Below the pieces are notes generated by a model. It had not been told where the DNA came from. It saw only the letters and a list, made by a program, of their open reading frames with translations, and ran no database searches. A program made the position numbers and the translations under genes. Positions 48,700 to 63,972 of a stretch of DNA of 64,000 bases are shown here, piece by piece (position 1 is the first letter of the stretch; each line of letters opens with the position of its first letter). The DNA is from Thalassotalea sp. HSM 43 (lineage in GTDB: Bacteria; Pseudomonadota; Gammaproteobacteria; Enterobacterales; Alteromonadaceae). The DNA lies in assembly GCF_004752005.1 (NCBI RefSeq), contig NZ_CP038493.1, positions 1,636,302 through 1,700,301 of the forward strand, written 5' to 3'.

Positions 48700-49698
48700 T
48701 TAGATAAAGCTAGGCTTTTTCGGGCTATTTGTGCGTCTAGTGATATAGGCAATTGCATCTTGTTCACCATGATTACTAAAGCTGCGAGCGGCGTTAATCG
48801 GGGTAGAAAAATTATCACCTTTGGTTAGCTCTACTTGTTGACTATCAACCGTCATTATTAATGCGCCTTGATGGATGAAAACCACTTCTTCTTCATAGCG
48901 AATGTGATCCGCGATGCTGGCTCCTGGTGCCAATCGAATCGCACTCATAACAAAGTCATGCTGCCAATTTAACTTGCTCGCTAAAATACCTTCTTGTTTA
49001 TTTTCAGGGCCTATCAACCCCGCTTCCGCCACGCCATCAAAGCTTGCCATAACAGTATCTGTTTGCCAGTTAAAATCAGCCACTCGAACAACGATATCAT
49101 CGAGCATTTCGCTGTTGATCACTCGATGTTCAGCAATTTGCTGTGCCGACGTTACCGGCATCGGCAGTTCACCGTCAGGAATGGTTTCACCGAGTGTGGT
49201 ATCAACCAAGGCACCGTTTTCCAACAACACCAAACCAAAATCTTTTGCCATTTCAAAAACGCTTGGTGCCCATAATACTCGGCCAGGATCATCGCCACCA
49301 AGTACCGCATGTAAATAGCCTAGCACGGAGCCCGAGTTTTCAAATCCTCGAAACACATCCATCGGAATCGAAATAACGTCCCCTGGGTTTAGGGTGATCC
49401 GGCCATCATCAGCATTGATGCCGGTGATAAAATCCCAGTCACCAAAATGCACCACAAACACTTCTTCCGTTAGATGACTGTGTTGCGAGTTTAAACACCC
49501 TGGTGGTTGTCTGGCCCCACCGATATTAAACCCATGCGGGATTGATATATGGACATGCTGATGCGGATTTTCGGCAACCCCTGGACCAATCACGGTAAAA
49601 TTTTCTTTTTTATCACTACCTGGTGAGCGTGTGTCTATAAAGGCATTGGTACATGGCTTGAGATCTTTATACTTAACAAGTCTTTGTTCTAGTTTCAT
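48700..49698 (-). CDS. Bicupin-domain protein
   Basis: The 332-residue protein holds two cupin barrels. The first (about 60-165) has NSQHSHLTEEVFVV, supplying the HxH-x4-E metal ligands, and GDVISIPMDVFRGFEN. The second (about 215-320) has IADHIRYEEEVVFIHQG and GDNFSTPINAARSFSN. In both, the His usually found in the second cupin motif is replaced by Arg, so metal binding, if any, is in domain 1 and incomplete. Cupins of this kind include isomerases, lyases and dioxygenases. It lies 12 bases after the SDR gene, in the left arm of the catabolic cluster. The reaction is unknown. Confidence 0.75.
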   Translation of the reverse strand: MKLEQRLVKYKDLKPCTNAFIDTRSPGSDKKENFTVIGPGVAENPHQHVHISIPHGFNIGGARQPPGCLNSQHSHLTEEVFVVHFGDWDFITGINADDGRITLNPGDVISIPMDVFRGFENSGSVLGYLHAVLGGDDPGRVLWAPSVFEMAKDFGLVLLENGALVDTTLGETIPDGELPMPVTSAQQIAEHRVINSEMLDDIVVRVADFNWQTDTVMASFDGVAEAGLIGPENKQEGILASKLNWQHDFVMSAIRLAPGASIADHIRYEEEVVFIHQGALIMTVDSQQVELTKGDNFSTPINAARSFSNHGEQDAIAYITRRTNSPKKPSFI

Positions 49699-49710
49699 CG
49701 TAATACTCGT

Positions 49711-50454
49711 TTATTGTGCTGTCCAGCCGCCATCAATCTTAATTGAGCTGCCAGTTATCATTTGTGAAAGGTTACTAAGTAAAAACATACATGCATTGGC
49801 GACATCACCGGTCGATGCAAGTTTCTTCATTGGAATCATGCCAAAAACAAAGTCTCTAAAAGCTTCATCTTCCAGCATTGGCTTGGTCATCGGTGTTTCG
49901 ACAAAGGTCGGCGCAACGCTATTTACTCTAATGCCCTGCTCTGCGATTTCGACCGCTAGTGATTTGGTTAATCCTTCAACAGCATGTTTGCTCATACAAT
50001 ATAAAGTTCGCCCTGGCGAGCCAACAAAACCCATCTGTGACGACATATTAACGATGCTAGCAGAGTTTGATTTTGACAGAGCAGGTAATAACGCTTTAGT
50101 AACTTTGTACATACTGCGAATATTCATGTCGATTACGCTATCAATATTATCATCCGATTGCTCGCTCATTGGTGCGACACGGTTGATACCAACGTTATTG
50201 ATCAGGCCGTCAATCGTCTCAAGCTCAGTGACCTTAAGAAAAAACTCAGCCGAATTGACATCAACTGGCCATCCAACAATGTGCGCATCCGCCTCGACTA
50301 AAGAGTCTAAATCCGACTGTGTGCGAGCAACGGCAATGACCTTTGCGCCAAGGCTCGACGCCAACAATGCGCAAGCCCTACCAATTCCCTTACCGGCACC
50401 GGTAATTAAGATGGTTTTGTTAACTAGTAAATCTTTACTGTATCCCATAATCAT
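49711..50454 (-). CDS. Short-chain dehydrogenase/reductase (SDR)
   Basis: This 247-residue classical SDR has the cofactor loop TGAGKGIG (18-25), NNVG (86-89), catalytic S139, Y152 and K156 (YCMSK) and a C-terminal GSSIKIDGGWT. It should oxidise a secondary alcohol, or reduce a ketone, with NAD(P). I use the ATG at 50454; ATG 50448 is also possible, and the frame's first codon (TTG 50463) is unsupported. It diverges from the HpsN-like dehydrogenase operon with a candidate operator between them, so both are probably under the LacI-type regulator. Confidence 0.9.
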   Translation of the reverse strand: MIMGYSKDLLVNKTILITGAGKGIGRACALLASSLGAKVIAVARTQSDLDSLVEADAHIVGWPVDVNSAEFFLKVTELETIDGLINNVGINRVAPMSEQSDDNIDSVIDMNIRSMYKVTKALLPALSKSNSASIVNMSSQMGFVGSPGRTLYCMSKHAVEGLTKSLAVEIAEQGIRVNSVAPTFVETPMTKPMLEDEAFRDFVFGMIPMKKLASTGDVANACMFLLSNLSQMITGSSIKIDGGWTAQ

Positions 50455-50515
50455 TGAATCCAATGGTCTTTAAACAGGCCATTTTTAGGCCGATTGTTTC
50501 GCTAAAATTATCTTT

Positions 50516-50529
50516 TGCATTCGAAGTCA
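50516..50529. promoter_or_regulatory. Candidate LacI-type operator (imperfect palindrome)
   Basis: TGCATTCGAAGTCA lies in the intergenic region of the divergent SDR and dehydrogenase operons. It matches 12 of 14 bases of the perfect palindrome TGACTTCGAAGTCA found upstream of the symporter operon. The central TTCGAA resembles the CG-centred operators of LacI-family regulators. Confidence 0.55.
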
Positions 50530-50623
50530 TTATTGATTAGTATGATTTCACTTTCAAGTAAAAAATAAACAAATCGACCAATCATAGGTCGCTTAACAAG
50601 TTATAGCTCAGGAGTTTTCAAAA

Positions 50624-51901
50624 ATGATCAGGTATCTCAAAAAAGGGCCTTCAAACCAAGAAAAAGAAACACAAAACCAAGAGGTTAGAAATATAGTCGA
50701 AGGGATCATAAAAGACATTGAAGAGAATGGCGATAATGCTGTCAGACAATACTCTGAGAAATTCGACAACTGGAATCCGGAGTCATTCCTTCTTTCTAAA
50801 GAGCAAATTAAGGCCTGCTATGACGAATTAGACGACAGCGTTATTGAAGACATACGCTGGGCTCAAAAACAAGTGCGAAACTTCGCTCAAATTCAATTAG
50901 AGTCAATGAAAAACGTTGAAGTAGAAACGTTGCCTGGGGTTATTCTAGGTCACAAGCATATTCCAATGGAAAGCGTTGGTTGTTATGTTCCAGGTGGTAA
51001 ATACCCACTGGTTGCATCGGCTCATATGAGCGTATTAACCGCTAAAGTTGCCGGTGTAAAGCGTGTAATTGCGGCGGCGCCTCCCTTTGACGGTCGACCT
51101 TCACCGGCCATTGTTGTCGCTATGGACTTGGCGGGTGCCGACGAAATTTATTGTTTTGGTGGTGTACAAGCAATCGCCTCTATGGCAATTGGTACCGACA
51201 GCATAGCTCCAGTCGATATGATCGTAGGCCCAGGTAATGCCTTTGTTGCTGAAGCAAAGCGCCAACTGTTTGGTCGAGTAGGTATCGATTTATTTGCCGG
51301 ACCGACTGAAACTCTGGTTATCGCCGATGACAGCGTCGACGGTGAATTATGTGCTGCCGATCTATTAGGCCAAGCAGAACACGGTCCAACATCACCAGCG
51401 GTTTTATTGACCGACAGCGAACAACTTGCGCATGACACTATGGCTGAAGTTGAACGCCAGTTAAAAATCCTGCCAACAGGCGAAGTCGCTGGCATGGCTT
51501 GGCGCGACTTTGGTGAAGTGATTGTTTGTGATAGCAAAGAAGAAATGCTGCAAGTGGCCAATGAATTAGCGTTTGAGCATGTGCAGGTTATGGTTAACGA
51601 TGTTCAATACTTTAAAGACAATATGCAAAACTTCGGTGCGCTATTTTTAGGTCCAGAAACCAACGTTTCTTATGGCGACAAGTGCATTGGCACCAACCAC
51701 ACACTTCCAACTCGTAAAGCTGCGCGCTATACTGGCGGATTATGGGTGGGTAAGTTTATTAAAACCTGTACTTATCAAAAAGTTACGGAAGAAGCTTCAT
51801 TAATGGTCGGCGAATACTGTTCTCGCTTATGTGCAGTAGAGGGCTTTGCAGGCCATAAAGAGCAAGCAGATATCCGTGTAAGACGATACGGAAATAAGTA
51901 A
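50624..51901 (+). CDS. Histidinol-dehydrogenase-family alcohol dehydrogenase (HpsN-like)
   Basis: The 425-residue product belongs to the HisD superfamily: zinc-dependent, NAD-linked, oxidising a primary alcohol through an aldehyde to an acid. Zinc ligands Q250 and H253 (GQAEHG), D352 (YGDK) and H411 (AGHK) and the catalytic E318-H319 (FEHV) are kept. The flanking blocks [23 protein letters not shown] and [15 protein letters not shown] resemble the sulfopropanediol dehydrogenase HpsN, as I remember it, more than biosynthetic HisD. No other his genes are near. The start has AGGAG at a good distance. It leads the rightward operon with the LacI regulator, hydrolase and aldolase, so a catabolic substrate is likely; DHPS itself is not shown. 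Confidence 0.85.
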
Positions 51902-51903
51902 TT

Positions 51904-52917
51904 TTGGCAAAACAAAAACGAGTTACATCTTACGACGTAGCGCGCGAAGCAGGTGTTTCGCAATCGGCTGTATCCCGGGTTTTTCGCCCGGGATTTAGTG
52001 TATCTCAAAAGACGCGCGACAAAGTATTAGAAACCGCCAATCGCATGGGATACAAACCTAATGCCATTGCGCGCATGTTGATCACTCAACAGTCCGGTAT
52101 GGTAGCCGTAATATTGTCTTCTATGGCAAATGAGAACTACCCGGAAGTGCTGTCGCAAATCAATCAGAATCTCGCTGAAAAAGGCAAACGAATTCTGCTG
52201 TTTACTCTTGATAAATCAGATGACCTATCTGACATTATGGAACAAATATGGACGTTCCAAGTAGACGGTGTTATTGCCCTTGCCGCTCATTTCGAAAGCA
52301 AAAACCTCAAGCAATTTGCTAAGCATAATGTTCCTGTGGTTTTGTACAATCGAAATGCGCCAGAAGCGAACGCTAATTCCGTATGTTGTAATCATGAACA
52401 AGGCATCAAACAGCTGATTGATAATTTGATTGACTACAACCATAAATCGTTTTTGATAATGTCAGGTCCTACATCATCGGATGTAGCCAATGAACGCCGT
52501 GAAATCGCTGAGCAAAAACTTGCCAAGCATGGGTACGACAATGTACCTATTATTTACGGAGACTTTAGTTATGACTCAGCGCGAGAAATACTGCGTGACT
52601 GGGCCAAAGACAACCCTTTACCCGACGCAATAGTATGCGCTAATGACAGTATGGCAATCGGTGTGATTGACGAATGCAGAGACGTATTAGGCAAGAGCGT
52701 GCCAGATGACGTCTCTGTTGTTGGTTTTGACGGTCTAACTGCCAGCAAATGGTATAACTATCAGTTAACCACCATTAAGCAACCATTAGAGCAACTAACC
52801 AAAGCCGCGGTGGATATTTTAATAGAGCGTATTGAAAACTCCGATGCTTTGCCAGAAACACGTGTATTGTCGGGCACTTTTATCGAAGGGAAGTCAGTTA
52901 AAGCTAGAAGCGAATAA
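51904..52917 (+). CDS. LacI-family transcriptional regulator
   Basis: The 337-residue regulator starts at TTG 51904. A LacI helix-turn-helix (SYDVAREAGVSQSAVSRVF, about 9-27) and hinge (KPNAIARML) are followed by a periplasmic-binding-protein-like effector domain (SGMVAVILSSMANENYPEVL to the end, with AIVCANDSMAIGVIDE and DDVSVVGFDGL). It probably controls the cluster by binding the 14-bp palindrome at 58332 and its near copy at 50516; the inducer would be the substrate or an intermediate. Within the HTH-coding part (51972-51994) an 8-bp GC-rich inverted repeat could form a hairpin in the mRNA. Confidence 0.92.
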   Translation: MAKQKRVTSYDVAREAGVSQSAVSRVFRPGFSVSQKTRDKVLETANRMGYKPNAIARMLITQQSGMVAVILSSMANENYPEVLSQINQNLAEKGKRILLFTLDKSDDLSDIMEQIWTFQVDGVIALAAHFESKNLKQFAKHNVPVVLYNRNAPEANANSVCCNHEQGIKQLIDNLIDYNHKSFLIMSGPTSSDVANERREIAEQKLAKHGYDNVPIIYGDFSYDSAREILRDWAKDNPLPDAIVCANDSMAIGVIDECRDVLGKSVPDDVSVVGFDGLTASKWYNYQLTTIKQPLEQLTKAAVDILIERIENSDALPETRVLSGTFIEGKSVKARSE

Positions 52918-52918
52918 C

Positions 52919-53641
52919 GTGACTCACACTGTATATTTACTAGCGGGCACTATGTGTAGTGCCCGGATGTTCCATCCATTAACAGCGACATTAACCAACG
53001 TAGGTTATAACACGCAAACAATAGCGTTTAGCACCGAAAAATCTATCGATGATATGGTGCAACACTGTCGCAAAATAATTACCCAACCAGCCATTATTTT
53101 AGGTTTTTCCATGGGTGGCATGGTTGCTTTAGAGCTCGCCAAGCAATGCCCGACACTCATACAAGGGCTGATTTTACTCAGTTCAAATAGTCATGCTGAT
53201 GCACCAGGTCGAGCCGAAATACGAAACCAACATATAGTGCAAGCAAAACAGCAAGGCTTAGAGGATGTGATCAAACATTTTTATTTGCCCAACTATTTAT
53301 ACCAACCTACCACGCAAATAGAGCAACAAATTATTGCTATGGCTACGGATTTGGGCTTAGCGTGTTTTGAGAGTCAGCTAATGGCGCTGGCAACACGAGC
53401 CGACTCTCTCGACGTTATCAGTAAACTCAGCCGCCCATTATTATTGATAGCAGGTAAAAATGACCGTCTTTGCCCAGAGCAAGAACAATATAAAATGCAC
53501 AATGCGTTACAAGATTCTACGCTCTGTTTAATCGATCAATGCGGCCACTTTCCAATTTATGAACAACCACAACAAACATGCGCGAGCATCACAGATTGGC
53601 TAACCACACATTTTGACACGAGGCAAAATAATGACCTTTAA
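52919..53641 (+). CDS. Alpha/beta-fold hydrolase
   Basis: The 240-residue protein has the alpha/beta hydrolase triad: Ser64 in LGFSMGG, an Asp in IAGKNDRLCP and His in DQCGHFPIYEQP. I begin at GTG 52919, one base after the LacI stop, because the first beta-strand (THTVYLLAG) starts there. The longer frame reaching back into lacI adds 29 residues that fit no hydrolase start. It could cleave an ester, lactone or C-C bond in the pathway. It overlaps the aldolase gene by 11 bases. Confidence 0.82.
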   Translation: MTHTVYLLAGTMCSARMFHPLTATLTNVGYNTQTIAFSTEKSIDDMVQHCRKIITQPAIILGFSMGGMVALELAKQCPTLIQGLILLSSNSHADAPGRAEIRNQHIVQAKQQGLEDVIKHFYLPNYLYQPTTQIEQQIIAMATDLGLACFESQLMALATRADSLDVISKLSRPLLLIAGKNDRLCPEQEQYKMHNALQDSTLCLIDQCGHFPIYEQPQQTCASITDWLTTHFDTRQNNDL

Positions 53642-54386
53642 GCAACGTTTAGCAAACCAAGAAAAATTATTAGGTACCTTTATCAAAACGCCTCATTACC
53701 ATGTAAGTGAAGTGTTGGCGAAAACAAACTTAGATGTTTTATGTTTGGACGCAGAACATGCACCATTTGATCGCAAAGATATCGACGCATGCGTATTAGC
53801 GTGCAAAGCTAACAACATGCCAGTCATTGTTAGATTGCAAGATGACAACCCTGCAAACATATTAAATGCGCTCGATATGGATGCCGATGGCATTGTTATT
53901 CCACACGTAAAAACAGCTGAACAAGCGAGAATGCTCAGTAAAAAGTGTCATTTTGGCAATGAAGGAAGAGGCTTCGCTGGCTCGACAAGATTTGCCAATT
54001 ATACTCGAGCAGGCATAACCAATACACTACAAAAAGACCAACATCAAACCACTGTTATCGCTCAAATTGAAGATGCTGATGCGCTGCCCAATGTCGATCA
54101 GATTTGCCAAGTTGATGGTATCGACTGTGTGTTTATCGGCCGTATCGATTTAACCATTTCTTTAGGTCAAGACTCGCCAACGCAGCCAAGCGTAATGGAA
54201 GCCGTCGAGCGTATTGTCGACAGCTGCATTAAACATCAAAAACCGTGTGGCATGTTTGTCGGAAATTTAAATGAGTTGGCACATTGGAAAGCCAAAGGCG
54301 TGCAGTTGTTTTTGCTGGAAAGTGACCACAGCTTTCTATTTTCTGGTGCTGAAACCTTGCTAACTAAATTTAATGAGGTCGACTAG
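53631..54386 (+). CDS. HpcH/HpaI-type class II aldolase
   Basis: The 251-residue enzyme resembles metal-dependent 2-keto-3-deoxy acid aldolases (YfaU/HpcH). It shows LGTFIKTPHYHVSEVLAKTNLDVLCLDAEHAPFD with the catalytic His43, then PVIVRL and DADGIVIPHVKTAEQA. GNEGRGFAGSTRFANY, the metal-site QIEDADAL and FIGRIDLTISLG follow. It should split a hydroxy-keto acid into pyruvate and an aldehyde, which makes it a likely final carbon-cutting step. The ATG at 53631 with GAGG seven bases earlier is preferred to the TTG at 53613. Confidence 0.88.
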   Translation: MTFKQRLANQEKLLGTFIKTPHYHVSEVLAKTNLDVLCLDAEHAPFDRKDIDACVLACKANNMPVIVRLQDDNPANILNALDMDADGIVIPHVKTAEQARMLSKKCHFGNEGRGFAGSTRFANYTRAGITNTLQKDQHQTTVIAQIEDADALPNVDQICQVDGIDCVFIGRIDLTISLGQDSPTQPSVMEAVERIVDSCIKHQKPCGMFVGNLNELAHWKAKGVQLFLLESDHSFLFSGAETLLTKFNEVD

Positions 54387-55878
54387 TTTGCGCATTAATA
54401 ACCGCTTCTCTATGACCCTATATCGGCAAAAGTTAACCACTCCACGGCTTTTCATCATTCTGGTTGTTGCTATGCTTGCCGCTTCCGGCTGTAAGCCAAA
54501 TATCGAAACTAACACTGCAACAAGCGAGGGTCAGGATACAAGCCTATCGTCGCTATCTGAATTAACCATACCAGCATTACAAAAAAGGCGCTTTACCAGT
54601 GCTCTACACATCGAACAATTAGTGTCGACCGGGCAAACTAAAAACCAATACACCGAACATTACAATATTGCTCAAGCGCCATACAGCACCTACATGGCCA
54701 GCTATGATTCGGATGGATTACAACTGTACACGCGTATTGATATCCCGGAATCTGCGCCGCCAGCCAATGGCTATAAGGTGATTATCTTTGTGCATGGCTG
54801 GATTGGTGTTAAAAATGCGCCAAGCTATAACTTTAATTATGCGCCCGACAATAATTACGCCGAGATTATAGATCAATACGTGAAGCAGGGTTTTATCGTG
54901 CTAACACCAGGTCTTAGAGGGCATGGTGCGGTCAATGGCAAGCAAGCTGACGGCATAGAATTTATGCACGCGTGGGATAACGCCAGCTATATTAGCCCTG
55001 CGTTTTACGCTATCGATGTGCTCAATCTATTGGTGGCGACACCGAGTTTACAGAACATTGACTGGCAGGCATTTAATCAGCAACAACGAGCCATTCGCAT
55101 TAATCAAGACGCGATTAATATCACAGGTCACTCTCAAGGTGGCGACGTGGTATTAACCGCCCTAGCTGTTAGTGGTGAAAACCCGCATTTACAACCGACC
55201 TTTAACAGCGCAGCAATTTGGGCCGGGTGTATTTTACCTAAGTTGGAGCAAACACTGCTATACACGCCGATGGCAGAGAGTGCACAAGCCTTTTTGTCCG
55301 GTGATGGCACATGGACAGCATCTGCGGTTGGTCAAGACCAGTCAACAAACCCGGATTTCTTATTTGCCTATCCACCAGATTGGATCACCTACCCAGATAA
55401 CAGCAACAATGACTGGACATGGCAACATGATAAGTGGTCGACAAAAACCGTTAAGCAAAGTCTGCAAAAACGCGTCAGCTCAATGTACGACATATTAACC
55501 GCACAGGTCGAAGATATTAGCGATATCAAGTTCACTATATCGACCAATGCTGATGGCAAAACAATTGTGAATCACGACCCGTTGATAATCGACACCTATC
55601 GCACATTAAGCCCATTTTATTTTCCTGAGGCTATCAAAGAACCGCTATTTTTACACCACAGTGATCGTGACTATTACTCACCAAGCCTATGGAATGAAAA
55701 ACTGGTTAACGCCATAAGTAATGCCAACGGTTACGCTAAGTCATTTGAATACAAAGGCACCACCCATAGCCTAAAACTTAGTGAGCACGCATGGTTTTCT
55801 CCAGCTTCAAGTAACGAAGGCGTGACCGAGATGATTGAGCACAACACAAAACTGTTTAATCGCGCACATAAAAGGTAA
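54373..55878 (+). CDS. Lipoprotein alpha/beta hydrolase (prolyl-oligopeptidase-like)
   Basis: The protein is up to 501 residues. Its signal ends in the lipobox MLAASGC (Cys40), so it should be anchored in a membrane facing the periplasm or outside. The hydrolase fold shows the oxyanion FVHGWIG, nucleophile Ser254 in ITGHSQGGD, an Asp near 431-433 (HHSDRDYY) and His465 (GTTHSLKL). The start is uncertain: ATG 54373 overlaps the aldolase, TTG 54388 has a better GAGG site, and ATG 54412 gives the neatest signal peptide. As the only exported enzyme of the cluster, it may release the transportable substrate from an ester or larger molecule. Confidence 0.8.
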   Translation: MRSTSLRINNRFSMTLYRQKLTTPRLFIILVVAMLAASGCKPNIETNTATSEGQDTSLSSLSELTIPALQKRRFTSALHIEQLVSTGQTKNQYTEHYNIAQAPYSTYMASYDSDGLQLYTRIDIPESAPPANGYKVIIFVHGWIGVKNAPSYNFNYAPDNNYAEIIDQYVKQGFIVLTPGLRGHGAVNGKQADGIEFMHAWDNASYISPAFYAIDVLNLLVATPSLQNIDWQAFNQQQRAIRINQDAINITGHSQGGDVVLTALAVSGENPHLQPTFNSAAIWAGCILPKLEQTLLYTPMAESAQAFLSGDGTWTASAVGQDQSTNPDFLFAYPPDWITYPDNSNNDWTWQHDKWSTKTVKQSLQKRVSSMYDILTAQVEDISDIKFTISTNADGKTIVNHDPLIIDTYRTLSPFYFPEAIKEPLFLHHSDRDYYSPSLWNEKLVNAISNANGYAKSFEYKGTTHSLKLSEHAWFSPASSNEGVTEMIEHNTKLFNRAHKR

Positions 55879-55883
55879 ACCTA

Positions 55884-56906
55884 ATGAGCCAAGCTTTAGC
55901 GGCGCAAATAGCGCAAAACAAAAAATTAGTGCAACGCCTTAGAGCCGCACTATATGATTTCGACGCACAGCAGTTGCCACAGACAATTGAGCAATTATTT
56001 GCACCAGACGCCGTCATTCAATTGTGCCATCCATTTGAAACATTACCATCAAGGGCTGAACTAGCGGAGGTTTTTTTACAACTCGCGAGTGCGATTCCTG
56101 ATTTAGAACGGCGCGATACCATCGTTATTGGCGGGCCATCACTTAATGACAGCCAGTGGGTGGGTTGCTGCGGCTATTATACCGGCAGCTTTGAACACAC
56201 TTGGCTCGGCATCCCTGCAACCGGTCATCAAGTTCATTTAAGATTCCACGAATTTTACCGTATCGAAGACAACCAGATTATCGAAATGCAGGCAATTTGG
56301 GATATTCCTGAATTAATGATGCAAGCAAATGTTTGGCCTATGGTACCCAGCCTAGGCAAAGAATGGCATGTTCCAGGCCCTGCGACCCAAGACGGTATCG
56401 TTAATGTGCCCTATGATAACGCACTCGCCGATAGCAGCCGCAATCTGGTCAACGATATGTGTAACAGTTTAGGTAATTATGCCAGTCAAGGCGTCGCAGG
56501 CATGCAATTAGAAAAATATTGGCACCCAAGGTCAAGCTGGTATGGACCATCAGGTATAGGCACGGGTAGAGGCATAGAAGGGTTTCGCAATTGGCATCAA
56601 ATCCCATTTTTAAATGGCTTACCCAATCGCGTTGGCGATGCCAGTAAAGGCTATTTATTTGCTGATGACCATTATGTTGGTTTTACGGCTTGGCCTGGTA
56701 TGCATATGACTGTCAGCGGCGATGGTTGGTTAGGCATTGCACCAGCCAATCAAAACATAACTATGCGTAGCTTAGATTTTTGGCGTTGCGAAAACGGCTT
56801 AATTCGAGAAAATTGGGTGTTAATTGATCTATTGCATGTCTATAAACAACTTAATGTTGATGTATTGGCGCGTATGCAAGAGATCAATAAAGCGCGTAAA
56901 AGATAA
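55884..56906 (+). CDS. Tandem SnoaL-like (NTF2 fold) protein 1
   Basis: The 340-residue protein looks like two SnoaL-type domains. Each ends in the family's closing motif (acidic turn, W/I-x-D, hydrophobic helix, Q/L): DNQIIEMQAIWDIPELMMQANV near 142-150 and ENGLIRENWVLIDLLHVYKQLNV near 305-325. Domain 2 holds WYGPSGIGTGRGIEGFRNWHQIPF, nearly shared with the paralogues at 57.0 and 60.1 kb. SnoaL-like proteins include polyketide cyclases, isomerases and hydratases using an Asp/His pair. It follows the lipoprotein hydrolase by five bases, so it is in the same operon. The reaction is unknown. Confidence 0.75.
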   Translation: MSQALAAQIAQNKKLVQRLRAALYDFDAQQLPQTIEQLFAPDAVIQLCHPFETLPSRAELAEVFLQLASAIPDLERRDTIVIGGPSLNDSQWVGCCGYYTGSFEHTWLGIPATGHQVHLRFHEFYRIEDNQIIEMQAIWDIPELMMQANVWPMVPSLGKEWHVPGPATQDGIVNVPYDNALADSSRNLVNDMCNSLGNYASQGVAGMQLEKYWHPRSSWYGPSGIGTGRGIEGFRNWHQIPFLNGLPNRVGDASKGYLFADDHYVGFTAWPGMHMTVSGDGWLGIAPANQNITMRSLDFWRCENGLIRENWVLIDLLHVYKQLNVDVLARMQEINKARKR

Positions 56907-56916
56907 ACTCAAATGA

Positions 56917-56947
56917 CAGCGCCAATATCAACAATATATTGGCGCTG
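56917..56947. terminator. Strong hairpin between convergent SnoaL genes
   Basis: A perfect 12-bp inverted repeat (cagcgccaatat / atattggcgctg, seven-base loop) sits between the ends of the two convergent SnoaL-like genes. No T-run follows on either side, so it may be a Rho-assisted end or an mRNA-stabilising structure and not a classical terminator. Confidence 0.55.
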
Positions 56948-56990
56948 CATGATGTCGAATTGAATTGAAACGTCGCGTTGTTAGTTTGCC

Positions 56991-57995
56991 TTAGTCTGGA
57001 TTAACAATGCTTTTGGTACGTTCCAAAATGTCCAGGCCTTGCTGTTTTAACCAGTAAGGAATATCAATAATAACCCAGTTTTCTTCTAGCTTATCTCCAT
57101 CACGGCGATACACATCAACGACACGCATGTCGGCACGTTTACCACCTGGCAAGCCCAAAAAGCCGCCACTTGGAGTATTGCTTAGATTCGGCCAGCCAAA
57201 GAAACAGGCATAATTTCCCTCAGCATAACGGCATATGTGACCATTAAAGACTTTATCCGATAACCCTTGCCTAAACGGATAAGAGTGTTGATGCTGATAA
57301 CGTCTAATGGTGTAACTTGCGCCAATACCAGCGGGACCATACCACACCATATTTTCAGACCAAGATTTGGCTAAAATCTCTGGCGGATAATTATCATCGG
57401 CCGTTTCATTTAGATTCGACAAATCCTCAATCATCTTATTAAGCACTGCTATGGTTTTAGCTGCCTCGGCAGGGTCCTTATCCTCTAACATCACACCATC
57501 ATGGGTTCTCGGCCCTGGATAAATAAACGAGTGACCTGTTTCAATGGTTAAAGGGTTGATGCCAACTTGATTCATTACTTGAATAATATCGATGAATAAA
57601 CCGGTTTGAGTGATCTTGCCGTTTTCTATGCGATTAAAGTCAGCATAGCGAATCATTATGACTTTTTTAGATTTAGGAATACCCAACCAATCGTTATCAA
57701 ACAGAGCCATAAAGTGGCCCATACTCGTTACCCATTGCGAGCCATCGCCACTTTCACCAGCCATAAAAACGTCTTGACGACGCTGAATGTTTTTGAATGC
57801 ACGCATAAATGGTTGCCAAAATACCTCAGCCACAGCCTCACAACCTAATTGCTCATTAAACGGATGCACACCGAAAAATTGATAATCATCTGCGGTATTG
57901 TGTTTTAGAACATCAACGACGGTATGCTCATCGGCGGCCTCTAATTGCTGATAAAAGTCGAGTATCAATTGTTTATTTTTTTGCGTTATCGTCAT
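56991..57995 (-). CDS. Tandem SnoaL-like (NTF2 fold) protein 2
   Basis: The 334-residue paralogue has two SnoaL-like domains: ENGKITQTGLFIDIIQVMNQVGI near 120-140 and GDKLEENWVIIDIPYWLKQQGL near 300-320. Domain 2 has VWYGPAGIGASYTIRRYQHQHSYPF, matching the WYGPxGIG-H core of its sister proteins but lacking the TxRG-x-x-GF form. Its ATG at 57995 follows a purine-rich GAGAAGAG. The earlier TTG (58007) is unsupported. It is the only SnoaL gene on the minus strand and has its own promoter region, shared with the symporter operon. Confidence 0.73.
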   Translation of the reverse strand: MTITQKNKQLILDFYQQLEAADEHTVVDVLKHNTADDYQFFGVHPFNEQLGCEAVAEVFWQPFMRAFKNIQRRQDVFMAGESGDGSQWVTSMGHFMALFDNDWLGIPKSKKVIMIRYADFNRIENGKITQTGLFIDIIQVMNQVGINPLTIETGHSFIYPGPRTHDGVMLEDKDPAEAAKTIAVLNKMIEDLSNLNETADDNYPPEILAKSWSENMVWYGPAGIGASYTIRRYQHQHSYPFRQGLSDKVFNGHICRYAEGNYACFFGWPNLSNTPSGGFLGLPGGKRADMRVVDVYRRDGDKLEENWVIIDIPYWLKQQGLDILERTKSIVNPD

Positions 57996-58442
57996 ATCTC
58001 TTCTCAATTTTTTTGGCCGCTAGAGCCATCAAATCATACGTGTTTAAACTATGTCAGTTTACATGCGGTTATTGTTCGCCTTAAAAACAGTATGTCACTT
58101 TTTCGGGCTAACGTTTTGTTCCATGGTTTTGTTACAGGGTTTTGTGCCACCTTGTTGCGCTGCACAAAGTTCGAGCACCGATGAAAAAACATACTCCAGC
58201 CAAGCCTTGAAACGACGAAAAAGCCTCTCAAAACACTGTTTTAAATAACTTTTATGCAAACCATCAAGCTTTCTATTTGATATTGCTTATAGCAACGCTT
58301 TTCAATGAAGCTAATTAATGCTATGTTGTTGTGACTTCGAAGTCAATTTGTTCTGTTAAATTCAAAAAACAATAAAATTTAACGACAAAATGACGGTAAA
58401 CATGCAAAACATAATTATTAATATAAAAGAGACATTCATCGC
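57996..58442. promoter_or_regulatory. Divergent control region of the symporter operon
   Basis: This 447-base gap lies between the leftward SnoaL-like gene and the rightward symporter operon. It contains the perfect palindromic operator candidate (58332-58345). A 65-codon open frame from ATG 58051 begins with a hydrophobic, signal-like stretch and then a short basic tail. It has no clear ribosome-binding site and I do not call it a gene. Confidence 0.5.
58332..58345. promoter_or_regulatory. Candidate LacI-type operator (perfect 14-bp palindrome)
   Basis: TGACTTCGAAGTCA is fully self-complementary with a central CG, as expected for a LacI-family site. It lies 98 bases before the symporter start codon. 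A 12-of-14 copy lies at 50516-50529 between the two other operons of the cluster, next to the lacI gene's own promoter. Confidence 0.65.
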
Positions 58443-60056
58443 ATGAACGAATTTGGTATTCTTAACTGGAGTATTCTCATCGTATACATAGTGGCTAATT
58501 TGCTGCTTGGCTATGTATTGAGTAAAAAAATATCCTCTTCCAGTGATTTTTTCTTAGGCAATAAAACAACCCCTTGGTGGGCAATCGGCATCAGTGTCAT
58601 CGCAACCTACGTGAGTGCGCTGACCTTTTTAGGAGCCCCGGCATGGGCTTATCAAGAAGGCATGGGAGCTATTGCCATACACTTAAATTATCCATTGGTA
58701 ATAATTGCGGTGGTATGTTTATTCTTTCCTTTTTTCTATAACGCCGGTGTTGCCTCGATATACGAGTATCAAGAAAAGCGCTTTGGTAAGAAAGCTCGTG
58801 CACTAGTCTCAACAATTTGGATGTTATCGCAGACCATGAGCTCTGCTGCTGTACTGTATGCGACCTCGTTAGTACTGGCATTCATCATAAATATCGATGT
58901 CACTAGCGCCATATTTATCGTCACCATAATCGCCTTAATTTATACCATGCTTGGTGGTATTACTGCGGTTATTTGGACTGATGTAATTCAATCAGCCATA
59001 TTGTTTGTTGGTGCCGGTATTATTATGTACGCTTTGATCACCAACATGCCTGGTGATTTTCAGCAAACACTGATGTCATTAAAAGATCAAGGCAAACTTG
59101 ATCCGCTCAATTATTCCGTAGATTTCTTCCAGACCACTACCGTTTGGTCAGGGGTTATCGCAATGACGATTTACCATATTACGGTATATGGCACCAATCA
59201 AATGATGGTGCAGCGCACATTAGCAGCGAAGAATATTGGCGATGCGAAAAAGTCATACTTATTGATGGGCTTTTTAGCCTTCTTTATTTACTTGTTCTTT
59301 ATTGTCATGGGTGTGCTGTTCTATGGCTACTATGATGGCCGAGAATTTGAAAATCCAAACACCATTATCCTGACCTTTGCCGCGGATTATGGCATGCCAG
59401 GATTGATGGGAATCATCGCCGCTGCCGTTATGGCTGCATCGATGTCGAGCCTAGACTCAGCATTGAACTCGTTATCGACTATCAGTACCCTCGATTTTTA
59501 TAAAAAATACTTTGTCAAAGATAAATCTGACCAACACTACCTTAAAGCAACACGTATTTTCACCTTGGTGTGGGCCCTGATCATTATCATTCCAGCGATC
59601 ATGTATCACCTTCATGCCGCAGGCTCTATTCTTGAGATATTAACTAAAGTCGGTTCGTTCTTTGTTGGTGCACAACTGGGTATGTTTGCCCTTGGTTTCT
59701 TCTCACAACATACCACCGAACGTGGCTTGTTAATTGGAACCGCAGCAGCGTTCTCTGTGGTTACCTATGTCGCCCTTGCGACAGAACTAGCTTGGCCTTG
59801 GTATGCGGTAGTTGGGGTAAGTGTTAGCTTGGTTGTCAGTATTATTGCCAGCCTTGTGCTTGATGGTCGCCAGCAAACATACAGTGAATACACCATTAAA
59901 GGTCAGATTGAATCGTTCGTGAAAAACGATAAGCCGATGAAGGAAAATGGCTGGTACTTGGTGCCAGGAAAAATAGATTCTATTAATTACTTATTATTCG
60001 CATTTTTCATCGTCAGCATTATGTCCTTAGTCTTATTTGAATACTGGATAGGTTAA
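58443..60056 (+). CDS. Sodium:solute symporter (SSS family)
   Basis: The 537-residue inner-membrane protein has about 13-14 hydrophobic segments and the SSS pattern: DFFLGNKTTPWWAIGISVIATYVSALTFLGAPAWAYQEGM near 32-70 and YEYQEKRFGKKAR near 105. GGITAVIWTDVIQSAILFVGAG near 175 and AAAVMAASMSSLDSALNSLSTISTLDFYKKY near 330-360 (Na+ site region) follow. It would import the substrate with Na+, the usual marine energy currency. It is the first gene of a rightward operon that continues, with a one-base TAATG overlap, into a SnoaL-like gene. Confidence 0.92.
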   Translation: MNEFGILNWSILIVYIVANLLLGYVLSKKISSSSDFFLGNKTTPWWAIGISVIATYVSALTFLGAPAWAYQEGMGAIAIHLNYPLVIIAVVCLFFPFFYNAGVASIYEYQEKRFGKKARALVSTIWMLSQTMSSAAVLYATSLVLAFIINIDVTSAIFIVTIIALIYTMLGGITAVIWTDVIQSAILFVGAGIIMYALITNMPGDFQQTLMSLKDQGKLDPLNYSVDFFQTTTVWSGVIAMTIYHITVYGTNQMMVQRTLAAKNIGDAKKSYLLMGFLAFFIYLFFIVMGVLFYGYYDGREFENPNTIILTFAADYGMPGLMGIIAAAVMAASMSSLDSALNSLSTISTLDFYKKYFVKDKSDQHYLKATRIFTLVWALIIIIPAIMYHLHAAGSILEILTKVGSFFVGAQLGMFALGFFSQHTTERGLLIGTAAAFSVVTYVALATELAWPWYAVVGVSVSLVVSIIASLVLDGRQQTYSEYTIKGQIESFVKNDKPMKENGWYLVPGKIDSINYLLFAFFIVSIMSLVLFEYWIG

Positions 60057-61039
60057 TGACAACGGTACTCGAAAACGCTTATCAACAGGTGTTTGCTAAC
60101 AACAGCGCAGTGCCATGTGCAATCAGTGATGATTGCACATGGCACGTGGCTCACCCTATCAACAGCTTAGTTGGCAAAGAAAACATTCTAAATGGCTATT
60201 TCAATGTGTTGCGTACAGCGATGCCCGATATCGAACGACGGCCATTTATCTCATTTAGTGATAATGACCGAGGTGAAACTTGGCAAGGGTCAACCGGTTA
60301 CTTGGTGGGTACTTTTAGTCATGATTTATTAGATATACCAGCAACGGGAAAAACGCTTTATTTACGCTATATGGAACTAAGTCAGGTTTGCAATGAGCAA
60401 GTAGTAAGTTGCTACACCATCATCGATTTTATTGACGCGATGGAACAAGCTGGCGTTAACCCGATTCGTAAATGTCTCGGCCGCTCGGGTTTAGTATTAC
60501 CGCCGGCAACTTTTGATGGCTTATGTCAGGATGAGAAAAATAATGACCTAACACAGTCGTCAATTAACTTGGTTAAAGCCATGCACGCCGAGCTCGGTCG
60601 GTTCGACGGCACATCGTTAAGCAGTATGGATTTGGCCAAGCATTGGCACCCAGACTTTCTTTGGTATGGGCCTGGTGGCATCGGAACGACTAGAGGTATT
60701 AGCGGCTTTAGAGAACACCATCAAGGACCTTTTTTACGCGGTTTTCCTGATCGCGGAATCGATGGCACCTTGTGCTTCATCGGTCATAACAACTATGTGG
60801 CAACCGGTGGTTGGCCGCATATGTACGGCACCTTATCAGGAGATGACTGGTTAGGTCTCAAAGCAACAAACATAAAAGTATTGCCCAGAGTCATGGATTT
60901 TTGGCGCAATGAAGGCGGCCTGCTTCGAGAGAATTGGGTAGCAATCGATATAATAGACATGTTGTGGCAAATGGACATCGATGTGTTTGCTGTAATGAAA
61001 GAAAATTTAGTTTTATGCGACAAGCAAGTTATTCGTTAA
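60056..61039 (+). CDS. Tandem SnoaL-like (NTF2 fold) protein 3
   Basis: The 327-residue paralogue has two SnoaL-like domains ending in NEQVVSCYTIIDFIDAMEQAGV (about 115-135) and EGGLLRENWVAIDIIDMLWQMDI (about 290-312). The second contains LWYGPGGIGTTRGISGFREHHQGPF and GGWPHMYGTLSGDDWLGL, very close to protein 1 (55.9 kb). The first domain has ENILNGYF and MPDIERRPFI, where protein 1 has AEVFLQLASAIPDLERRD. It is translationally coupled to the symporter, which suggests it acts early on the imported compound. Confidence 0.75.
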   Translation: MTTVLENAYQQVFANNSAVPCAISDDCTWHVAHPINSLVGKENILNGYFNVLRTAMPDIERRPFISFSDNDRGETWQGSTGYLVGTFSHDLLDIPATGKTLYLRYMELSQVCNEQVVSCYTIIDFIDAMEQAGVNPIRKCLGRSGLVLPPATFDGLCQDEKNNDLTQSSINLVKAMHAELGRFDGTSLSSMDLAKHWHPDFLWYGPGGIGTTRGISGFREHHQGPFLRGFPDRGIDGTLCFIGHNNYVATGGWPHMYGTLSGDDWLGLKATNIKVLPRVMDFWRNEGGLLRENWVAIDIIDMLWQMDIDVFAVMKENLVLCDKQVIR

Positions 61040-61070
61040 TTTGTTTGCTTACAGGTTAGGATATTAAACA

Positions 61071-62195
61071 ATGCCAAATCTTCAAAAAGACATCACGCAA
61101 GTATATTGGCAACCCTTGCAATCATTGCTAAACCCAACAGGGCCAAAGGTACAGGCGCTAGAAGGGTTTGATAGCGAATTCGTCGATCTGGTCGATTATA
61201 TAATTCGCATCACCCATCGAATTTGGGAACAGAAAAACATTGGCCTTTGTTACGATTATTACGCTGACATTTGCCCTGTATACATGCTCGGTGGTTATTG
61301 TGAATCCGTTGATGATGTCGTTGCCAACACCTTAAAAACCATTGCCGCGTTTCCAGACCGTTCATTAATTGGCGAAAATGTCATTCACAAAGACGAGGGC
61401 GACGGAGTTTATTATTCTTCGCATTTGATCACCTCCATCATGACTAATTGCGGCGATTCTGAGTTTGGTCCGGCGACCAATAAGACAGGTAGAGTAACCA
61501 CCATTGCCGATTGCGTATGCAAAGCAAATCGTATCATTGAAGAATGGCTGGTAAGAGATAATTCATTTTTAGTGAAGCAATTGGGTATAGACCCTATCGA
61601 TGCCGCCCGACATATGGCCAAATCTGACGCAAACTCTGTTTTTACAAGCTGGTACACCAGTGAATATGCTCGCGTTATGGCGCACGATCATAGACAGCAA
61701 TGCGAGCTGGAACAATGGACTAATATCGACGACTTTGACGGTCAGGCATTTGCTCAGTCTTGGTTGCAAACGCTGTTTAATCGTAAGCAGTTTTCACAAA
61801 TCGACAAATACTACAAAGGTAACGCCAAACTGCAGTGGCCCGGTGGCCGAAAAGCGGTTGGTTGCGCAAAAATAGCCGGCACATTGATTCAATGGCTAGC
61901 ACAATGCCCGGATGCGAGAGTCAGCTGCGATCATGTTGGCGTCACCTACTTCGACGACAACACCGTAGATGTTGCTATCCGTTGGGGTCTTGCCGGTCAC
62001 TTTAACCCTCAAGATAAACGACTTGCTCACAGTAAAGGGCAAGAATTGTTTGTGTTAGGTGCATCACATTTGCGAATTAGTAATGGCAAAATCGAATCTG
62101 AAATAACCGTATTTGACGAAGTGGCAATGTATGCCAACCTACTTCGAGATGGTTCACAATCATTAGCTATGTTGGGAGGCAAAATTGATGCTTAA
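61071..62195 (+). CDS. Tandem SnoaL-like (NTF2 fold) protein 4 (divergent)
   Basis: The 374-residue protein seems to have two SnoaL-like domains. The first ends with KANRIIEEWLVRDNSFLVKQLGI near 150-172, the canonical polyketide-cyclase-like motif. The second ends NGKIESEITVFDEVAMYANL near 335-355. It lacks the WYGPxGIG core of proteins 1-3; domain 1 instead has YYADICPVYMLGGY and domain 2 has YYKGNAKLQWPGGRKAVG. It is thus a separate branch with possibly a different substrate or step. GGTTAGG serves as ribosome-binding site. Confidence 0.72.
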   Translation: MPNLQKDITQVYWQPLQSLLNPTGPKVQALEGFDSEFVDLVDYIIRITHRIWEQKNIGLCYDYYADICPVYMLGGYCESVDDVVANTLKTIAAFPDRSLIGENVIHKDEGDGVYYSSHLITSIMTNCGDSEFGPATNKTGRVTTIADCVCKANRIIEEWLVRDNSFLVKQLGIDPIDAARHMAKSDANSVFTSWYTSEYARVMAHDHRQQCELEQWTNIDDFDGQAFAQSWLQTLFNRKQFSQIDKYYKGNAKLQWPGGRKAVGCAKIAGTLIQWLAQCPDARVSCDHVGVTYFDDNTVDVAIRWGLAGHFNPQDKRLAHSKGQELFVLGASHLRISNGKIESEITVFDEVAMYANLLRDGSQSLAMLGGKIDA

Positions 62196-63075
62196 CAAGG
62201 ATAATGCGTTAGCACAGTTAACCACGCAGTTATACGGCGAAGGAAACCTTAACGTACTAAGAGCCAAGCTATTGCACTCATCGTCTTGGCAGCAACATAA
62301 TTTGTGTTGCTATGGTAACGAGTTGCAACAAGCGATGTGGTTAGAACACATCAGTGATTTTGGTCTAGGCAATGTCGATGTGGCAAACTGCGTGAGCAAT
62401 GGTCATCACACCGTTGTGCATATCAATGCAGCAAATAAAGCCAATTCCAACCCTGTCAATATGGCGCTTTATTTTCATCATAACGATGAATACATCAAAA
62501 CTGTTGAATGTATTGTTGATAGCCATAGCTACCAACACGCGATAGAAGCAGATTGCAGCCAATTTATCGATAAACTGCCAACACCAGACCCAATTATTGC
62601 CAGCCAAATTGATCAGCAATTACATCCAAAAACTTCGCATATGACGCCAGCGAACTTGGTTGATGGTAATTGCCCGCATATCGATGCGCTTAACAATTGG
62701 TGGTCTATGTGGGTCGACAAACAGCTTAGCCTAGCAAGTGATATCTACGCCGACGAAGCGCGTGTTGAGCTGTCCCACAGCTATTTAGATAACGACAGTG
62801 ACGATATTAAAAGCTATATCATCAAGTTGACTAAAACCCTCAAGCGTAGCTACTTTCAACTCGAAGATATTATTGTAGACGCAAAGTCATCTGACAAAGT
62901 GGCGATAAAATGGTTTGTCGACGGAGATATAACAAGTAATGGCACCAATACACGTGTCAGTGTTCCGGTATTGACGATATTAACCTTTGCGCAAGGCCAA
63001 ATCAGTCATGAATCTATGTTAGTTGATTGGCACGCAACAGCGAAACAGTTCGGCCTTAAGCAAGCGATTATTTAA
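62188..63075 (+). CDS. SnoaL-like (NTF2 fold) protein 5 (divergent)
   Basis: The 295-residue protein has a second half (about 165-292) like a SnoaL domain, with WWSMWVDKQLSLASDIYADEARVEL and the ending AQGQISHESMLVDWHATAKQFGL. The first half shows only weak resemblance (HHNDEYIKTVECIVDSHSY) and may be a worn SnoaL domain. The ATG at 62188 has GGGAGG eight bases before it and overlaps the end of protein 4 by eight bases. The two proteins may form a complex. The reaction is unknown. Confidence 0.62.
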   Translation: MLNKDNALAQLTTQLYGEGNLNVLRAKLLHSSSWQQHNLCCYGNELQQAMWLEHISDFGLGNVDVANCVSNGHHTVVHINAANKANSNPVNMALYFHHNDEYIKTVECIVDSHSYQHAIEADCSQFIDKLPTPDPIIASQIDQQLHPKTSHMTPANLVDGNCPHIDALNNWWSMWVDKQLSLASDIYADEARVELSHSYLDNDSDDIKSYIIKLTKTLKRSYFQLEDIIVDAKSSDKVAIKWFVDGDITSNGTNTRVSVPVLTILTFAQGQISHESMLVDWHATAKQFGLKQAII

Positions 63076-63078
63076 CTG

Positions 63079-63972
63079 ATGAAGCGCATGCCGATACCAT
63101 TAATTGATGCCCATCATCATTTATGGGACATTGAGAAAAATCATTACCCTTGGTTAGCCGCCAAGGGGGAAATGCGTTTTTTCGGGCAGCCTGACCCTAT
63201 TCGCGTGAATTATTTGCCAGCAGACTTTATTGAAGATCACCTAAAACAAGTCGAACGTTCAGTGCATATTCAAGTAGGCATCGAACCTTCTGCCAGAGTG
63301 CATGAGACCAAATGGTTACAACAATGCCACAATCAATCAAATGGCAGATACCCGGCAAAAGCCGTGGTCGATATTGATATGTTGGCGACAGATGTTGAGC
63401 AGCAAATCATTGCCCAAAAACAATACAGCATCACTCAAGGGGTGCGACATATTATTGGAAAAAGCACTGAAGAAAACAAACAACTGCCTGATTTTGATCG
63501 AGATAAATGGTTAGCTAGCTTGCAGTTGCTGGTTAAACACCAGCTTAGCTTTGATTTACAGTGCACCAGTGAACAATATCAACAGATATACACGGTGATA
63601 AGGCAAGTTCCAGAGCTTAAAGTCGCTATCTGCCATCTCGCCTCCCCATGGGAGCAAACCGAATCAGGCTTTGCTCACTGGCAACAGTATATGGCGAAGT
63701 TTGCAGCTTTGCCGAATGTGTATATGAAAATATCTGGTTTTGCCATGTTTAATCATGGCTTTATAGAACCAATGTTTATCAAATATGCCAGCCAAGCAAT
63801 CGAGTTATTTGGTGCACAGCGTTGTATGTTAGGCTCTAATTTTCCGGTTGATAAACTATACATGAGTTACCAACAGCTATTAATGGTGTGGCAAAACTTA
63901 CTGTCTATATACGACCAAGAGCAGCAACAGCATCTCGCCTATAACACCGCACAATCGTTTTATCAGCTATAA
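63079..63972 (+). CDS. Amidohydrolase-2 family protein (lactonase-like, COG3618 type)
   Basis: The 297-residue TIM-barrel metal hydrolase starts PIPLIDAHHHLWDIEKNHYPWL, the hallmark of the fuconolactonase/dicarboxylate-lactonase group (metal His in HHH, about 12-14). It continues with VQVGIEPS-like strand ends (HIQVGIEPSA), AICHLASP, YMKISGFAMF and GSNFPVDKLYMSY, the last with the conserved Asp. It should open a lactone or similar cyclic ester. It begins three bases after the SnoaL-like gene and is the last gene seen; the operon may go on beyond the window. Confidence 0.87.
   Translation: MKRMPIPLIDAHHHLWDIEKNHYPWLAAKGEMRFFGQPDPIRVNYLPADFIEDHLKQVERSVHIQVGIEPSARVHETKWLQQCHNQSNGRYPAKAVVDIDMLATDVEQQIIAQKQYSITQGVRHIIGKSTEENKQLPDFDRDKWLASLQLLVKHQLSFDLQCTSEQYQQIYTVIRQVPELKVAICHLASPWEQTESGFAHWQQYMAKFAALPNVYMKISGFAMFNHGFIEPMFIKYASQAIELFGAQRCMLGSNFPVDKLYMSYQQLLMVWQNLLSIYDQEQQQHLAYNTAQSFYQL

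Follow-up and report, generated by a model that had tools for sequence, protein, structure and literature searches.

Positions 48700 to 63972 of a 64,000-nucleotide stretch of the Thalassotalea sp. HSM 43 genome (contig NZ_CP038493.1, positions 1,636,302 to 1,700,301; the whole stretch is referred to as the window) hold 14 genes, five of which encode, as a preliminary description made from the sequence had recognized, SnoaL-like proteins. The cluster extends beyond the window end with genes for a MetE-like methyltransferase, a TPR-sulfotransferase and a TonB receptor. Its gene set, conservation, enzyme families and shared operator-like sites are established by the data given below, and we are close to certain that this is a genuine, conserved cluster that very probably forms a single regulon. 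As to function, we lean slightly toward a regulon under LacI control that serves to take up and completely degrade a small O-methylated molecule bearing glycine, serine or threonine, most likely the mycosporine-like amino acids (MAAs). MAAs, which contain nitrogen, serve algae, corals and cyanobacteria as screens against ultraviolet light.

The preliminary description had proposed looking for the same neighborhood in other genomes; it was found there, and the reading of a catabolic cluster was not refuted. The signature gene is SnoA (55884..56906, plus strand), which encodes a tandem SnoaL protein with two SnoaL stretches recognized by Pfam. At E 1e-10, 18 of 195 related genomes (own genome counted) have a relative of SnoA. 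Genes for the HisD-like dehydrogenase, SDR, cupin, LacI, HpaI, SSS and SnoaL proteins stand together in the stretches fetched from 12 of the 17 others; among the remaining five, one stretch (G100) ends at a contig edge and the core set is missing from the fetched stretches of G020, G073, G136 and G159. Among relatives' copies, SnoE shows the lowest identity (26–35%). A class-wide draw gave SnoA relatives in 9 of 369 genomes (E 1e-60, own genome counted), and a draw from a single family in 43 of 48.

A scan of named genomes returned at least 592 pattern matches, of which 579 were confirmed as relatives. The best-scoring 80 loci were kept, so that the sample favors copies resembling that of the window; two of them (L145 and L146) come from one genome, and three (L078, L084 and L098) are G082, G097 and G100 of the related-genome set. 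Because calling of open reading frames (ORFs) gave spurious antisense ORFs in GC-rich loci, co-occurrence was counted from tblastn and antisense ORF families were ignored. On this basis LacI and SDR relatives occur in 43 loci each, HisD and cupin in 39 each, the ABC binding protein in 32, MetE in 29, the alpha/beta hydrolase in 28, HpaI and RraA aldolases in 18 each, Amidohydro_2 in 16 and SSS in 14. The two aldolases co-occur in none of the 80 loci, and neither do the SSS (14) and ABC (32) transporters. Loci with HisD are nearly complete (cupin in 35 of 39, an aldolase in 35, a transporter in 37), and those lacking HisD rarely hold the other parts (4, 1 and 9 of 41, respectively); relatives of the PcaD-like alpha/beta hydrolase are present in 28 of the 39 and in none of the 41. 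Annotated plasmid copies are found in Ruegeria and Paracoccus, and partial ones in Vibrio pelagius and the archaeon Halobellus limi. Named environmental carriers of the cluster include Colwellia hornerae (L078), Ruegeria meonggei (L138) and Alteromonas portus (L115).

The cluster also shares a palindrome. A perfect copy of the LacI-type operator-like site, TGACTTCGAAGTCA, lies at 58332..58345 in the divergent promoter between SnoB (56991..58007, minus strand; PF07366, two stretches) and the SSS-family Na+:solute symporter (58443..60056, plus strand; PF00474), and is the sole site with no mismatch in the 4.0 Mb genome. A copy with one mismatch stands upstream of the TonB receptor gene (G000 1706092), and these two are the only sites in the genome with 0 or 1 mismatch. 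A weaker form with two mismatches, TGCATTCGAAGTCA, occupies 50516..50529 in the divergent promoter of the SDR and HisD-like genes. In 14 regions from relatives, scanned at up to two mismatches, a site was present at the symporter/SnoB promoter in 12, at the HisD/SDR promoter in 11 (the same TGCATTCGAAGTCA variant in 11 of 14) and at the receptor in 10. The named scan includes 14 loci with the symporter, 10 of which have a site with at most one mismatch; permuted palindromes gave a mean of 0.18 and a maximum of 2. Weight is carried only by the sites with 0 or 1 mismatch and by their recurrence in relatives: at up to two mismatches the whole genome holds 16 sites, versus 8 for the reversed pattern, and a three-mismatch scan of the stretch downstream found 2 versus 0.43 expected. 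The palindrome shared by the symporter/SnoB, receptor and, more weakly, HisD/SDR promoters makes the cluster look like one regulon, and the LacI-family regulator encoded within it (51904..52917, plus strand; PF00356 and PF13377) would bind the TGACTTCGAAGTCA sites. Together the conserved gene set, the mutually exclusive aldolases and transporters and the shared operator lend good support to a coherent, uncharacterized catabolic cluster.

Two neighbors bear on the substrate. The first is the MetE-like ORF, which lies just outside the window (15–1139 bases past its end, minus strand; PF01717, 54 bits) and suggests that the substrate is methylated. H244, C246 and C344 are kept in at least 90% of 36 aligned relatives; the HxC motif and the distal cysteine are presumably zinc ligands. 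The second is a set of serine, threonine and glycine catabolism genes, which adjoin SnoaL genes in seven of the 80 loci and suggest a substrate bearing an amino acid, a property we consider probable. The preliminary description had envisaged a pathway for one small hydroxylated compound; the catabolic cluster stands, and the description of the compound is too narrow.

The gene orders in these seven loci are varied. L118 reads Tdh-Kbl-SnoD-SdaA-SnoA (Tdh, Kbl and SdaA above the NCBIfam cut-off), and in its genome a different contig carries the core pathway and more SnoaL genes. L095 reads SnoA-Kbl-Tdh (Kbl and Tdh above the cut-off), L104 and L111 read SnoA-SdaA, and in L083 SdaA stands beside the cluster. 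In L086, SnoA and a LysR-like ORF are followed by GlyA-SdaA-GcvT-GcvH-GcvP (GlyA, GcvT and GcvP above the cut-off; no NCBIfam match for GcvH at the E-value used), and in L097 GcvP-GcvT-GcvH-SdaA lies beside the cluster (SdaA above the cut-off, Gcv genes by tblastn). A genome search placed SdaA of L083, L086, L104 and L111 above the TIGR00720 cut-off. Omitted from the count are a Kbl-like match of 37% identity (L139) and matches under 150 bits to Tdh (L117) and GlyA (L107, L144). Outside the 80 loci, G136 and G159 have SdaA next to SnoB and a gene of symporter type, and in G073 and L185 less than 10 kb separates GcvP from SnoB. Copy numbers come from the genomes of 44 of the 80 loci, among them the six positives, and these genomes hold 46 serine deaminases; co-location by chance is expected 0.23 times in 44 loci and about 0.4 times in 80, and was seen six times (Poisson 4e-6, or 6e-5 when two Litoreibacter are counted once).

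The amino-acid genes, the MetE-like enzyme, the dehydrogenase and the aldolase, taken together, fit MAAs, and we regard MAAs as the substrate with about even confidence. Mycosporine-glycine, shinorine and porphyra-334 carry, as we understand their structures, glycine, serine or threonine on a methoxy-cyclohexenone with a tertiary alcohol and a CH2OH group. Passages of two articles report MAAs from algae, corals and cyanobacteria (PMC3083659, PMC12405062), and one of them places shinorine and porphyra-334 in the exometabolome of Microcystis cultures (PMC12405062). For Vibrio harveyi, work of Dunlap and Shick cited in a passage of PMC3083659 suggested that shinorine and porphyra-334 lose their hydroxyamino acids by hydrolysis and that 4-deoxygadusol is then formed; this resembles the amino acid removal proposed here, and the passage names no genes.

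The proposed route would begin with uptake by the TonB receptor and, across the inner membrane, the Na+ symporter, as their families suggest. The tandem SnoaL proteins would then hydrolyze the ring–nitrogen (enaminone or imine) bonds, freeing glycine, serine or threonine and leaving a ring of the 4-deoxygadusol type, a step suggested by gene neighbors and family chemistry. Besides SnoA and SnoB, the SnoaL-like proteins of the cluster are SnoC (60056..61039) and SnoD (61071..62195), each with two PF07366 stretches, and SnoE (62185..63075; PF12680, E 7e-6, 27 bits against a cut-off of 27), with one recognized, C-terminal domain, all three on the plus strand; four of the five SnoaL-like proteins in the window thus have two recognized SnoaL stretches by Pfam. 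Scores for PF07366 exceed the Pfam gathering cut-off, and the fold is that of SnoaL. SnoA was the one protein modeled, and a Foldseek search with its model gave Lsd19 as top match (281–283 residues, in another domain arrangement; TM score 0.32, root-mean-square deviation 17 Å). Tandem SnoaL-type domains had been called odd: they are unusual for the NTF2-like superfamily of SnoaL, PhzA/B and limonene-epoxide hydrolase, in that two domains are here fused in one chain within a catabolic cluster, but a likely precedent exists in Lsd19, which we take to be a two-domain protein. Lsd19 and the MonBI-MonBII complex are fused or paired relatives, with low whole-chain TM scores against SnoA. PhzA/B, a fold relative, forms imines on cyclohexenones, and by analogy the SnoaL proteins may catalyze the reverse reaction and so release amino acids from the ring.

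A HisD/HpsN-like zinc dehydrogenase (50624..51901, plus strand; PF00815) would next oxidize the ring CH2OH beside the tertiary hydroxyl to a carboxylate in a four-electron reaction. Its zinc site (Q250, H253, D352, H411) and catalytic Glu318-His319 are kept in at least 90% of 46 aligned proteins, and a separate histidinol dehydrogenase scoring 524 bits is encoded elsewhere in the genome, at 266781. The MetE-like enzyme, with its putative zinc ligands, would remove the enol-ether methyl. The bicupin (48700..49698, minus strand; two PF07883 stretches), proposed as a ring-opening dioxygenase or isomerase, would then act with the SDR oxidoreductase (49711..50463, minus strand; PF13561, E 1e-54), the lactonase-like amidohydrolase (63079..63972, plus strand; PF04909) and the alpha/beta hydrolase (52832..53641, plus strand), which is distantly PcaD-like by profile matches, to open and adjust the ring to 4-carboxy-4-hydroxy-2-oxoadipate, perhaps through a gallate-like intermediate formed by loss of water. 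This is the weakest step; the seven carbons of the proposed product match the demethylated 4-deoxygadusol ring and side chain. Finally, the HpcH/HpaI class II pyruvate-type aldolase (53613..54386, plus strand), or RraA in other loci, would make the last carbon–carbon cleavage, giving pyruvate and oxaloacetate. The aldolase matches PF03328, and H49, R74, E153 and D179, which we take to be the catalytic positions, are invariant in 20 of 20 sequences.

Some identities were rejected or qualified. The better conserved half of the cupin is the N-terminal one, with H73, H75, E79 and, at the third-histidine position, R117, each in at least 90% of 43 aligned sequences; the best match of the bicupin in PDB is to quercetinase (E 1e-4), through the C-terminal half. 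Quercetinase-type cupin dioxygenases have a 3-His-1-Glu metal site, and a true enzyme of this type is rejected for the cupin, in which Arg117 replaces the third histidine. The amidohydrolase is not assigned as L-fuconolactonase (87 bits against an NCBIfam equivalog cut-off of 400), nor the alpha/beta hydrolase as PcaD, being far under the NCBIfam cut-off; the listed start of the latter overlaps lacI, and the true start is probably downstream. A further, DLH-like alpha/beta hydrolase (54373..55878, plus strand; PF01738, 24 bits against a cut-off of 21), with a lipobox-like signal by eye, is accessory and not core, having tblastn relatives in 4 of the 80 loci.

Several observations weigh against the MAA route. 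Without its third metal histidine the cupin is doubtful as a dioxygenase, and the RraA-like aldolase of relatives (PF03737) has E-x20-RD in 24 of 24 sequences instead of the D-x20-RD motif of HMG/CHA aldolases. No MetE was found in the examined stretch of 14 of the 39 HisD loci. A lone SnoaL gene is present in 21 of the 80 loci, and a glycerol-kinase-like ORF (by eye) is near lone SnoA-type genes in seven (L100, L108, L109, L111, L112, L114 and L117), none with HisD. Only 7 of the 80 loci have the amino-acid genes as neighbors, and five of these are from gammaproteobacteria. The only serine deaminase gene of the Thalassotalea genome itself lies away from the cluster, and none was present within the fetched SnoA locus in 38 of the 44 genomes searched. 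Since the pattern was seen before it was counted and most cases are gammaproteobacterial, the serine deaminase statistic is suggestive and not proof. Three-mismatch operator sites in the window (4 versus 2.17 expected) are no better than chance.

A sugar-like ligand is suggested, moreover, by the LacI regulators and by the ABC transporter of relatives, which is of the sugar type. These features are the starting point of the strongest alternative, which we think distinctly less likely though worth serious attention: that the compound broken down by the regulon is a cyclitol or a methylated sugar or sugar acid, with the SnoaL proteins as dehydratases or isomerases, the amidohydrolase opening a lactone, HpaI or RraA cleaving a 2-keto-3-deoxy acid, and the nearby amino-acid genes incidental. 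The amidohydrolase is L-fuconolactonase-like and the aldolase GarL/HpaI-like, and the presence of limonene-epoxide hydrolase and LinA among the fold matches of SnoA indicates that the SnoaL fold is capable of hydrolyses and eliminations. The non-phosphorylative L-fucose and L-rhamnose pathways share an SDR, an Amidohydro_2 lactonase and an HpcH/HpaI aldolase with the cluster; the cluster differs in lacking a sugar-acid dehydratase and in its additional MetE-like, HisD-like and SnoaL genes. Profile searches found no glycosidase, sugar kinase or standard sugar-acid dehydratase among the cluster genes of the window, and for want of the dehydratase the standard sugar-acid route is rejected. When ORF families present in at least four loci were listed, a mandelate-racemase-type ORF (by eye) appeared in 4 of 86 clustered loci. 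A sugar also leaves unexplained both the serine, threonine and glycine genes beside SnoaL genes and the five SnoaL paralogues.

Another conjugate of glycine, serine or threonine, such as an undescribed methylated algal metabolite, would satisfy the amino-acid neighbors equally, which do not name the ring; it is nonetheless unlikely, for such a molecule must be methylated, must have a CH2OH adjacent to a hydroxyl and must carry one of these amino acids, and MAAs, on the structures assumed above, have all three. Catabolism of 2,3-dihydroxypropanesulfonate (DHPS) or another sulfonate is very improbable. The preliminary description had called the dehydrogenase HpsN-like, and the likeness holds: HpsN (8v35, 395 bits) is its closest solved relative, ahead of the best HisD (289 bits), and HpsN and HisD belong to one family, whose HisD-fold zinc and catalytic residues it shares. 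The implication of DHPS does not hold. His126, which a passage of PMC11382572 gives as the distinguishing mark of DHPS dehydrogenases, binds the sulfonate; the equivalent position is Leu129 here and, among 46 aligned proteins, Met in 29, Leu in 17 and His in none, from which it follows that the substrate is not DHPS. No recognizable sulfonate lyase gene is present in the cluster within the window, and the route is rejected. Biosynthesis of a polyketide-like secondary metabolite, suggested by the polyketide cyclases of the SnoaL family (AclR, SnoaL2 and KstA15 are among the folds nearest to SnoA), is the least credible reading and is rejected, as no polyketide synthase or other assembly enzyme was found among the cluster genes of the window, and uptake transporters, an aldolase and a LacI-type regulator point to catabolism.

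The end of the proposed MAA route resembles the lower pathway of protocatechuate 4,5-cleavage and gallate degradation, with a lactonase-like amidohydrolase, RraA or HpaI, and a C7 hydroxy-keto triacid as last intermediate. That pathway employs the LigI lactonase, LigJ hydratase and LigK/RraA aldolase. Profile searches found no LigAB-type dioxygenase among the cluster genes of the window, and to our knowledge HisD-like, MetE-like and SnoaL genes form no part of the known pathway.

Other arrangements were seen in individual loci. On the Vibrio pelagius plasmid (L040 5370-21972), a sarcosine oxidase operon with purU adjoins four SnoaL genes and an ABC transporter of the sugar type; HisD was not found in this stretch. 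Metagenome-assembled genomes of Chloroflexi/Anaerolineae (L129, L136, L140 and L143) have three or four SnoaL genes with common neighbors, a DAO-type oxidase (Pfam for L140) and an Asp/Glu-racemase-like ORF (by eye), and neither HisD nor an aldolase in their stretches; perhaps their pathway is shorter and goes no further than removal of the amino acids. In Ruegeria-type clusters a class I S-adenosylmethionine methyltransferase lies between the cupin and the MetE-like gene (7 of 80 loci; e.g., L039 19000-19602), and in L192 (5218-11195) a 1236-residue ORF, by eye a cobalamin-dependent methionine synthase (MetH), precedes a short SnoaL gene and SnoA. Beyond the TonB receptor (L076 6373-13321) are two sulfatase-like ORFs, one right-handed-helix-like and one esterase-like (by eye), probably the start of a polysaccharide locus.

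The preliminary description knew of no described pathway with this gene set, and this holds for the listed matches of full-text literature searches, which span only a minority of subscription journals and no preprints; nor did the excerpts of those matches contain a gene-level route for MAA consumption. It is possible, if somewhat short of an even prospect, that with this regulon a pathway by which bacteria degrade MAAs completely becomes known at gene level for the first time, with tandem SnoaL proteins as a new class of enaminone/imine C–N hydrolases and with cobalamin-free removal of an enol-ether methyl by a MetE-like zinc enzyme; the pathway would be common to Alteromonadaceae, roseobacters, Granulosicoccus-type bacteria, lake Comamonadaceae and SAR324, with shorter versions that strip the amino acid only. 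If so, this single regulon of about 14 to 17 genes would serve to mark MAA turnover in metagenomes from seas and lakes, and would give a function to the widespread group of ‘ester cyclases’ together with several new enzyme activities. Should the substrate prove to be a different one, the analysis still defines a regulon of wide conservation with a candidate operator and some dozen enzymes, all open to direct testing.

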